Source: an archaeon (GTDB taxonomy: Archaea; Altiarchaeota; Altiarchaeia; IMC4; QMZM01). From it: a DNA stretch of 16,451 bases. The DNA lies in the NCBI GenBank assembly GCA_029933895.1, contig JAOZNG010000010.1, positions 1 to 16,451 of the forward strand, in the 5' to 3' direction. The position numbers and the translations under genes are program-made. The notes beneath the pieces were generated by a model. The model made no database searches. It was not told the origin of the DNA and saw nothing but the letters and a program-made list of their open reading frames with translations. Shown here piece after piece: positions 3,201 to 9,200 of the stretch (the stretch's first letter is position 1; each line of letters opens with the position of its first letter).

Positions 3201-6200
3201 TCATGGAACAGAACGTCGAACAACGAGAGTGTCAAACTTTACATATCATCCAATGAGGGTGTGAACTGGACGGAGGTTACGGATGACCTTGACAGCGATG
3301 TGGTTCTGCAGGAGGACATAGCGGGCTACGGGGTGAAATACAAACTTGAATTCTTCTCCACCGGCCTGGATACAGATGTCATCCATGAGGTTAGACTGGT
3401 TTGCAGCTCGCCTGCCCCACACGACGTCACAGTGAGCATAGAGAACATCACTGTCTTCGAGCATAGCGGTGAGTTTTTCGGCACTGCTGATGTGTATGGA
3501 GTTGAGGATGAGCTGATAGATCTGGAGGAGAACTTCCCCGAGAAGCTGGAGTTTGATAGTAATTATACTTACTATAACCTGGTGATCAACACCTCCTCCC
3601 ACGGGATCATTCAGATAAACAACATTTCCATTCTCCAGTCACCTGCTTTCATCTCCCATTGCTCCCTCAGAGACAACGATATAGGTCTGAGACTTTTCAA
3701 TGCCAGCCTGCACATAAACCAGACGATTATAGACGGCAACAGAATAGGCGTGTACTGTGAGAGGAATGAAGAATCGGCCAAATATGCGATGCTGGGTCGG
3801 AACCTCTCCATCAACGGTTCCACGCAGACCGCCATAGTGCTTCACGGTGGAGAGGTAAACATTTACCAGAGCCTGGTGGAGAACAATGTGAAGGTGCTGG
3901 AGGCGGATAGGGGCGAGAACTCCGTGAACACCACCCTGAGGCTCTATCACACCTTTGTGATACACAATGAGGCTGCGGGAACAATAAACAATATTACGGT
4001 GGTGTTCACCAATACCAGCTATGATAAGGGAATGTCATTTGAGGTTCTGGGAGAGAGTGGCCTTTGGGAGGTAAGGTGGTACGAGAGGGTTCGAGTGTTC
4101 ACAGATAATTCTGACGAGGACACAGACTACAACAATCCTCTCTCCGGTGCGACCGTTAGAGTGTATACGAAGAGGTCAGGGGAGATGCTCATCTCCAGGA
4201 CCACCGATGAGACAGGTTTAACGGAGATGTTTGAGGTTGTAGAGTTCAGCAAGAGCGCCGAGGGTTACACCTACTTCACGCCCCATAGAGTGGAGGTGAG
4301 CTACAACGGTCATGAGAGGTCAAGGGTGTTCTATCCCTTCCTCAGGAGTTATTCCAATCTGACCATAGTGGTGGGAAACACAACCAGTAGCGTGATGGAT
4401 TCGGACATGGACGGGATAGTTGACCCGGAGGAGAACGGCGAACATACAGGTGAGAATTATACGGATCTCTACTGGTTGCAGGCAGAAGACCTCACGGCAG
4501 AGCCCTCGGAAATCATATATGACGGGGAGAGCTGGGGAGAGGCTGCGGTGATGGGCTTCAGAAATCTCACTGCCTACGTTCCAGTGCCGGATGCAGGTGC
4601 GGGAGGTTACTACAAGATATACTTCAGAGGCCGTTCTGGAGGTAGTAATGGGAGGATACGGAATTACGGAGAACTCAGCAATGTCACCTCACCGGTTACA
4701 GATATAGCCTGGAACGAGCGTTACAATTACGGATTTGCGGTGGCAGGCGGGACACTCTACAGGATTGAAGGGAGCGAGATAAGTGAGAGCAACATCAGTC
4801 AGGGCTATTTTGTATCCGTGCAGGACATTGACTGGAGGGGAAATTACGGAGAAGCCCTCATTGTGGGGACCCGTCCGGCAGTGGATGGTGAGGGGGGTGC
4901 GGTAGCACTTTATATCCATGGCGGGGAAGACGTCAGTGGAGCCACAATCAGCGGTGGAAGTCTTTATGGTGTCACGTTGCGGGCGTGTGCGTGGAATCCA
5001 TTTAATGAAGACCTTGCGATTATTGTTGGAGATAACGGTAAGATTCTGCTGTACCACAGAGATACCAATACGGCCTATGTGAACACCTATGGTGACGGGA
5101 CGGCGGTTCTGAACAGTGTCGCATGGATAGACTCCGATACTGCTGTAGCTGTTGGAGATAAGGGGTTGGTCCTTGAGATAAACGTACTTAATACGACAAC
5201 GGTCTCCGCAACGGCTCATAATGAAGGTTTTGAGGGGGATCTCAAGAGCGTGGAGTGGTCTTCAGAGCTGGGCTTTGGTCTCCTAGGCGGTGCTGGCATC
5301 CTTTCCAGATTTGATGACAACTTCCAGTTTATAAATGGGAGTGTAGAGAGGCTGGCGGGATATACGTTCTATGACGTGGAATGGGTATTTAACGAATCCT
5401 ATGCGATGATAGTTTGCGGCAACGGTCTTGAGACCGTTCTGCTGAGGTATGCAGGTGGGGGTATTGAAGAGATCGCAAAGGTTCCTGAGAAGGACTATCG
5501 GGTTATCGCGGAGGCGTGGGGGGCGGGAGGGGCGCTTCTGGGCGGCAAGCGGGATGGTGTGGCGGCAGTAGATTCCTGGACGGCGGCAATGATGGATGTC
5601 CGCGTGGGCAGCCCTGATGGCGGAGTGCTCACTGAGCAGGTGTCGTTCCAGAAACCGACCATTATGTGGAGCTCTCTGGACAGGTTCTACCTGCCGCCGG
5701 GAACGGAGTGTGTGGTTGTTTCGTTTTACGCGAAGCCCTCTGAGCGCCCACTTCTGGACCAGCTTGCGATTGCTAGACTTCAGGACGCTGGCGGGGAGGC
5801 CCTTCTTCAGCCCAGCAATATAAGCAATCCGCTTTTCATAGACAGCGATGGCGATATGATATACGATTTCTACGAGAGGAGTCTGATGTCGTTCTGGTAT
5901 GAGGCGGAGGACTACACCACGGAGAACTCTCGAAGGGTCTATGAGCTCAATGCCAGTAACGGCAGGGTTGTGAAAGCCCTTCAGGTATCTGAGAGCAACC
6001 CGGTGGTATCTGTGCACTTCCCCGACCTTCCTGAGGGGGAGTACAAGATAGGAGTGAGATTGAGGGCGGATCTGGGAACGTTTGATGATTTCAACGACGG
6101 TGAGATAGACACCGAGAAGTGGTCAGTGAACTCCACAACGTACATAGGTGAAAGCAATAACGTCCTCAGCATAAGTGCTTATGACACTCCCAGATATGTG

Positions 6201-9200
6201 AGAATGCTCTCCAGTGGTAGCCCGCTCTCCTTCTCATACGATGCGGAGCTTCGGATGGCCGTGAAGCTCAGCGACGATGCACTGGCGATAGGGGGCGGTC
6301 TCTACTTCAGATTCTTTGAGACCGGTAACACATCAAATGCGATTGAATACACGATGCACACCTCTGGTGGGGCTCTCGGCAGTGGAGATGCCATACAGGA
6401 CACCGTTCCGGAGCTTGCAGATGTGTGGAGGCAGCTGAGGGTTGAGGTGGTAAAAGGGGAGGGTGTGGCGTTTTTCATAACGAACGAGAGCGGGGCGTGG
6501 AGATTCGTAAGGTACATTGATTGCAGCGGCCTCAACAGGGATATTGGGGTGGATATTGGGGCCTACTCGGCGGAGATAAATCAGCTCTTCACGGTTTACC
6601 TGGACTACGTACAGCTCTCCTACGGTAAGGGCTTCTGCAGGATATTCAATAGGCCCTCCAGCGAGAGAACGATCTACGTGGGGCTGAAGTACAGGCTGTA
6701 CACGTACGATGTGGAGATTACAGGCGGTATGGAGTATCCTGAGTTCCAGATATATGATGAATCTCCTGTGGAGAACGTTAAGCTGCTGGTGGACAGCTTC
6801 TTCATTGTCCGAACAGATGACAATGATGTGGAGAATCTGAGCGTGGGTGGTGAGCTTACCGAGGCTACAATTACACTTTCATCTTTCAACAGCAGCAGTG
6901 GCAACTACACGGGCGAGGAGGTTGCAGTGGCGATTGAAGAGGGCAAGGACGTAAGCAGGATAAGGCTCAAGCTCAAGGGAGAATACCGCTCCTCGGTGAA
7001 GGCAGAAACCGCTGTGAGCTGTGCGGAGATTATCTCTATGGACTCTGATGGAGACTATCTCACGTGGATAGAGTGGAGTTCCAACAACACCTGGAGGGTC
7101 TACGTGAAGGACCTCTCCTCAGGAGAGGTTACAAGAATGGATGATGATGCGAGCTATCAGAAGAGGGGCGTGGCGCTCTCTGGTGAATATATTCTATGGG
7201 AGGAGTGCCGAAGCTCCAACTGGATAGTGCGCTACAGGAGGTTAGACAACTCAACACTTTATGCCTTCCCGTCCCTCACAGCCCAGACGGAGTGCAGGCA
7301 CACAAGCCTTTTCGGCGATGTAATGGTGACGGAGGTGATAAGCCAGGGTGCACATACAGTGTACGCAAAGAACCTCACCAGCAATGAACCTGGATATATA
7401 ATCTCCCGTTCAGGCTCTAGCAGCACCTATCCAGTGATATATGGTTCCAAGGCCTACTGGATTGAACTTTCGGGGTCCACCTATCGTATTGTCTGCAGGG
7501 ATATCTCCGAGATGAGCGATTACTGGGAGAGGATGGTAGCCCTGCAGAGGGGGAGAGAGACGGGTAGCTTCTCTCAGGAGGAAGGGGGCGGTATAACAGC
7601 TAGAACCCCTGTGTGGAGAGTTTATGACCTTCCGGGAACACCGGAGGATGTGAGATATCTTCGGGTGGGAGGCGATTATCTGATATACTGGATGAGAGAG
7701 GGCAGCTCATGGTATCTGAAGTACCTCAACGTGATAGATCCTTCAGCGACGGGAACGATAGCCGTTTACGAGAGTAACACGCCGGAGGAGAACAGCACGG
7801 ACATTACGAAGACCATGGTGGTGTATCCGGAGGAGGGCTCCTCCAGGCTCAAATATTACGATCTGCTCAGCGGCACCACGGATTATGTCTATACCAATTC
7901 CAGCGTAGGTTCGCCCCTTTATGTTACGATTTCAACACCGCTTGTAACAACGGGTAGGAAGAGCGTGTTCTGGGTGATACAGGAGAGCGGAGAGATGAAG
8001 ATAGAGGGGATAGAACAGGACATGTGCATGGAGATGGCATGGGAGAGCGGTACCTACGTGCCGCTGTGGAACAACTCCAGGATATTTTTCGGAGAGGAAT
8101 ACACCATAGATTTCGCCATATATGTCAACTATTATCAGCACTCCAATGGCGTGGCTGAGAACGGCTTTGTCACTGTTCCGCTGAGTTTCCGCTCTGTTGA
8201 TGGAAATCCGATGAAGATCGTGGGTATAGAGGGGAGCTACGGGATAATATCCAGTCCGCTGAGTCAGGATACAGACATGGATGGTCTTTCGGACACCTAT
8301 GAGACCTTTGGCTTCTTCGGCTATGATATTCTGCAGTTTGAGGACGCCTATGAGTTCAAGGGCTGGCGCAACATTATAGATCTGAGGGAGAGAACGGGGA
8401 CGGACGGCGAGCCTTATGTTGCCACTTACGGGCCTGTGGAGCTCTTTGAGCGTGACGATGTGCTCCTGACCTCCTCGTGGGAGTACGTGGAGAAGACCCT
8501 CAACACAACATCATATTCAGATGGGTTCAGGGACACTTTCGTGAACCTGAGGTTCAAGCCGGAGGACACCGGAGAATTCCGTCTGGGAATAAACATGTAC
8601 ATGCCGTATAAGGAGAGGAACGTGGCCCTTCCTGGGATGGACACGGCGAGCAGAGAGAGTTCCGTGTCGTCCGGTGAAGCTCCTTCAATCTCCCAGGATT
8701 TGAACAGCGGTCTAAGCACGGAGACTTTGAGTGTACCTGCCGATAATTCCGGGTCAACGATATACGGAGGTGCGCTGAACGCGGAAAACGTTCAGACATC
8801 TTACCCGACCACTTCATCTGGCTTCTTCCCGGTGACCACAGGTAACAGGAGTTATGTAGCCCTCAGGAAGATAGCGCCGATAAGCATTCATCTCAGCCGT
8901 CAGGTGAACGCTTCGTGGGTGAGCGGCTATCTTGAGGATATCGTGGAGGATGCACTTGTCATCAAGGTTTACCAGGACGATGGGAGTGAGCTGCAAGCGC
9001 TTCCTGGAAGCTGGAATCTGAATGTTATGCTGACGAAGGTCTATTTCATAGGCAGCCCTGATGAGCAGTATCCGGAGGACAAGGTGGGCTTTGAGGCCGA
9101 GATAGTGTGGAGTGCCGAGTACTCCCTAGCCTCTGGCACTTCCTACACGTTCCACATTGGGCTGGACCTTGAGAGGTGTGGAGAGAGCCGTCTTAATGTA

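Follow-up and report, generated by a model that had tools for sequence, protein, structure and literature searches.

The window analysed here is the complete 16,451-base contig JAOZNG010000010.1 of an archaeal genome bin (1.44 Mb, 75% complete). A single open frame begins at position 276 of its forward strand and runs past the contig end, encoding a giant protein of at least this extent: 5392 residues. Within this protein lie two neighbouring modules, A and B, which are probably tandem CBM6/35/36-like beta-sandwiches, each carrying a whole foreign domain in the hairpin after its fourth main strand and each still forming one domain. The hosts and their guests are arranged as follows.

4461..4643, forward strand: host A, first half (residues 1396-1456), last strand YKIYFRGR
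4644..5576, forward strand: guest A, probable beta-propeller (residues 1457-1767)
5577..5786, forward strand: host A, second half (residues 1768-1837), final strand LLDQLAIAR
5886..6074, forward strand: host B, first half (residues 1871-1933), last strand YKIGVRLRADL
6075..6626, forward strand: guest B, possibly concanavalin-like (residues 1934-2117), opening with GTFDDFNDGEIDTEKW
6627..6821, forward strand: host B, second half (residues 2118-2182), final strand LLVDSFFIVR

Modules A and B are related to each other, as a profile of the empty host shows. This profile was built from 24 uninterrupted modules, picked by eye from loci L021, L022 and L024 and from homologues, none of them from the window. 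It matches residues 1399-1459 in host A (profile 1-65, independent E-value (iE) 1e-6) and 1873-1937 in host B (profile 1-64, iE 4.7e-9), and both matches stop at the guest junction. A first-pass annotation of this DNA had described two related host modules split after the same strand, and the profile bears this out. The (Q/E)AED opening, the YKI-x-(F/V)-R-x-R strand and the closing-strand motifs on which that description was based were all located where it put them; the closing strand L-L-(V)-D-x-x-x-I-(A/V)-R is present in both hosts, although the closing part is longer than had been stated. A profile of the second half finds its best place in the entire protein at residues 2132-2182, in host B (E 0.011), with a score reached by one of 500 shuffles of the slice.

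Do the two halves of each host close into a single domain? AlphaFold2 (AF2) models were used to address this part of the first-pass proposal, with confidence given as the predicted local distance difference test (pLDDT). For host B, block means are 89-94 in the first half (model residues 11-70) and 79-93 in the second (model residues 261-320), with low values ahead of 261; for the first half of host A they are 76-89. Structure comparison aligns solved sandwich domains across both halves of host B, and the modelled hosts have a single beta-sandwich fold of about 120-135 residues. The models thus argue firmly for closure of the halves of module B into one fold, and weakly for that of module A. 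The latter model exceeds 400 residues, and absence of a family from the VIA list for module A is not read as a result.

The halves of each sandwich would probably be held together by a structural calcium with ligands from both. In the CBM35-like BT0996-C, a structural calcium is bound by Glu21, Glu23 and Asp137 among others, according to PMC9843283; this pattern and our alignment columns place the predicted ligands of host B as follows.

5901..5909, forward strand: E1876 and E1878, predicted structural-calcium ligands, host B first half
6792..6794, forward strand: D2173, predicted ligand of the same calcium, host B second half (same alignment)

The counterparts in host A are Q1402, E1404 and D1828. 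By sequence, host B carries the Glu-x-Glu of strand 1 and the Asp of the last strand, and all three residues are conserved in 30 of 31 host rows. Dropping the P0010 row that starts at 2881 gives 29 of 30; its Glu columns are spurious, as the true first half of that module is located further upstream. The sugar-contact Asn (region C) is expected two residues before the Asp, a position set from Ala135/Asp137 of BT0996-C in the same paper; it occurs in none of the 31 host rows, and host B of the window has Leu there. We infer that the hosts bind calcium. Retention of the ligands and absence of the Asn would fit a sandwich kept for its shape and shut by a metal that bridges the halves across the guest. 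Since the predicted metal site spans the guest, this metal-clamp idea of insertion tolerance becomes testable.

Several observations weigh against closure of the hosts around their guests. The second half of host A is not detected by sequence profiles, and the best second-half match for this host falls within the guest at chance level (81 of 500 shuffles equal or higher). In the AF2 models, pLDDT at the beginning of that half is 27-38, and both guests are modelled with low confidence. For the solved structure 6f2p, the best single stretch has an i-E of 0.097 and none passes alone. When MAFFT was given empty rows only, the second half aligned as expected in 0 of 28 cases for module B and in 25 of 28 for module A. 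The AF2 models are moreover not independent of row choice, because rows of the input alignments were picked after trying which of them align the second halves as expected; mixed alignments had at first misplaced the second halves or collapsed. Alignment A4 excludes P0011 B, P0013 A and P0013 B, alignment A5 excludes P0011 B, P0013 A, P0016 B, P0020 B, P0027 B and P0037 A. Among the uninterrupted modules of the empty-host profile, P0013 A is missing its first strands. Finally, Gln replaces the first Glu of the calcium site in host A. Could the halves then be independent small domains that flank a propeller and a lectin-like domain in a plain tandem array? The missing profile support for the second half of host A favours such an array, but uninterrupted relatives hold both halves in one module (107-148 residues), and the structure matches span both halves; for B this explanation is already contradicted. 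We regard it as highly improbable.

To place the modules among relatives, proteins were gathered by a scan for a conserved DxDxDG/GWIDGW region and by a homologue search with core residues 2640-3300. Of 1139 candidates scored in the latter, 37 proteins reached E 1e-10 or better; with a limit of iE 1e-3, 16 of the 37 contain a host module and the other 21 lack one. Searching with residues 1380-2200 yielded nothing at E 0.01 (1080 candidates scored), and the empty host of G016, a relative from the same order, nothing at E 1 (180 candidates). In a scan of viral contigs, none of three stretches was confirmed. In G010 (L017), a faint profile match (E 0.12) is attributed to chance.

The same insertion point holds different guests, or none, in these relatives. 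L021 and L024, with 5129 and 2909 residues in their loci, come from one Thermoplasmatota bin and share colinearity with the window in several stretches. At place A the module of L021 is uninterrupted and at place B it is filled; in L024 both are uninterrupted. P0012 and L021 carry at the same site a guest whose beginning resembles that of guest B and whose length is about 185-195 residues. In P0010 a guest B-like domain lies there, after a Y-K-Y-Y-V-R strand, and P0013 has a propeller built from seven FG-GAP stretches (E 1e-45). We took a census of modules with the A4 profile, into which many of these rows and the window had gone, and kept near-identical relatives in. It comprises 59 modules at iE 1e-3 or better, 41 of them full-length and uninterrupted, 7 interrupted and 11 partial and unclassified. 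Five modules are interrupted by match span (those at place B in the window, L021, P0010, P0012 and P0013); the other two, window A and L059, have just one half above threshold. No interrupted module was found at place A besides that of the window, the L059 module being assigned to neither place. Most host-bearing relatives hold two modules in tandem. The search for homologues with other guests or with none, suggested together with the idea of a tolerant insertion point, has recovered both kinds, and the first-pass reading holds in substance.

One of these relatives carries more than one guest in a module, and a second appears to. In P0010, a single host module (residues 2596-3187) holds a different guest in each of two loops: two DUF11 stretches (E 1.3e-12) ahead of the Y-K-Y-Y-V-R strand and a guest B-like domain behind it. 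In L059 (G382:C5), frame residues ~107-590 apparently hold two concanavalin-like guests with the host strand SVKIILTTSVEAKN between them, as judged by eye; the second guest sits one strand later than the first, and the first half of this host scores only E 0.067.

An artefact of assembly or gene model in this metagenome bin might be suspected, as the bin is 75% complete and the window, a whole contig, ends with the frame still open. The frame contains no internal stop, however, and other assemblies have a guest in the same position, namely in L021 and in the proteins P0012 and P0010, which leaves this explanation next to no weight. A different history deserves more attention: one old guest B-like insertion in module B may have been inherited and repeatedly lost or diverged, with two unrelated propeller insertions besides and no specially tolerant socket. 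Common inheritance of guest B with the guests of L021, P0010 and P0012 was considered, and the scores make it less probable; we find this history rather unlikely.

The two inserts of the window are distinct, as first described, yet their fold identities are less certain than was then stated. Guest A is probably a beta-propeller, with about seven repeats that resemble blades, five of them recognised by pattern and two by eye; its blade count and closure are less secure than the earlier seven-bladed assignment implied. Guest B is possibly concanavalin-like. Neither guest rises above a Pfam family cut-off, and a profile of guest B-like domains run against PDB sequences returned two rows, the better at E 0.45. 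Neither host exceeds a Pfam family cut-off either, and no CBM family was listed up to an E of 10 when hosts A and B, stripped of their guests, and the empty host of G016 were searched; HMMER filters drop most matches above about 0.1 in such a search.

What might such an arrangement be for? In the nested architecture that we favour, modules A and B would be two tandem copies of the sandwich, with the propeller of A and the possibly concanavalin-like domain of B inserted after the Y-K-I-x-x-R strand, each guest being carried on two neighbouring host strands. The sandwich would now serve mainly as a scaffold, and the guests, to judge from their fold classes, may be binding domains that project from the main chain and are exchanged by recombination. 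We tentatively extend this to a dedicated exchange socket in giant archaeal surface proteins: a calcium clamp might keep the CBM-like module shut while concanavalin-like cassettes, single or paired, or unrelated propeller cassettes are swapped at one hairpin. If so, one protein backbone could gain new ligand specificities.

Propeller and concanavalin-like domain classes often bind ligands. The inserts, whole domains of such classes, are therefore not what one would expect of neutral loop expansions lacking a display role in a host that is still a sugar-binding module; retention of the calcium ligands with absence of the Asn in 31 of 31 rows also tells against that explanation, though it is suggestive only. 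In its favour, neighbouring loops also take insertions (P0010, L059). Moreover, the CBM35-like BT0996-C has neither the canonical Trp nor the Asn, yet binds the sugar polymer polygalacturonic acid, as reported in PMC9843283, so the missing Asn does not show that the hosts have lost sugar binding. On balance, we consider neutral expansion unlikely.

Compared with CBM35, CBM6 and CBM36, the hosts are without the canonical sugar-contact Asn, as is BT0996-C, and their beta4-beta5 hairpin can carry whole domains. Solved structures hint at similar events: the phage tail chain 9nwi_Y has 122 aligned residues spread over chain residues 2-511 and may be another sandwich with a large insertion, and 4kwu and 5f7u (cycloalternan-forming enzyme) have 117 and 118 aligned residues over 206 chain residues, hinting at an insertion in a solved CBM-like domain.

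Domain insertion as such is already known. Pilus-tip adhesins nest a von Willebrand A domain within another domain, and integrins their I domains; there, too, two strands carry a metal-dependent binding domain away from a host that resembles a stalk, but the folds on both sides are others, and here one host takes several guests, with many hosts left empty. In sialidases that have a lectin-like domain within or next to a propeller, these two folds are likewise combined by insertion; there the propeller is the host, whereas here it is the guest of a CBM-like sandwich. Giant archaeal DxDxDG-repeat proteins (L021, L024 and the 16 host-bearing of 37) share the same kind of host modules. Here, different folds have been inserted repeatedly at the same hairpin of a small module, an arrangement for which our searches of open-licence papers showed no title. 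The many empty natural controls in related proteins turn it into a natural experiment on which loops can accommodate a large guest. Protein engineering might find in it an acceptor that is already at hand, and archaeal surface proteins may alter the ligands they bind by such a route.

Host-profile searches found matches in 4 of 394 genomes around that of the window at E 1e-3, and in 7 of 389 genomes of the phylum of L021 at E 1e-4, own genome included in each case. G016 gave no match in the former, and G097 and G317 are absent from the seven of the latter, though modules are present in the fetched sequence of all three; absence in these searches is weak evidence, since they miss known modules. 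L045, L046 and L047 are shorter frames, found in further genomes of the same order or domain, with a host-like module that is full or partial (profile 3-113, 3-61 and 3-129); the empty form thus also exists outside the giant proteins.

The giant protein of the window is presumably secreted or surface-bound, with a hydrophobic, signal-like stretch seen by eye near its N-terminal start. Two linkers were read from the sequence around the modules.

4398..4442, forward strand: DSDMDGIVDPEENGE, calcium-loop-type linker ahead of module A (residues 1375-1389)
5832..5873, forward strand: DSDGDMIYDFYERS, linker joining modules A and B (residues 1853-1866)

Module-flanking linkers of the DSDMDGIVDPEENGE kind are also present in relatives, and L021 and L024 have an intermodule linker similar to DSDGDMIYDFYERS. 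Two related giant proteins occur each in the window's genome (the window and L013, G000:C151) and in the Thermoplasmatota bin (L021 and L024); in a tree of the core, L013 groups with L024 and P0019. Directly after module B, positions 6831-8255 (residues ~2186-2660) hold, by eye, another sandwich-like segment seemingly interrupted by a propeller, which we take to be TolB-like. L024 and L021 appear to have a similar unit in this place, and the nesting may therefore be a constitutive one.
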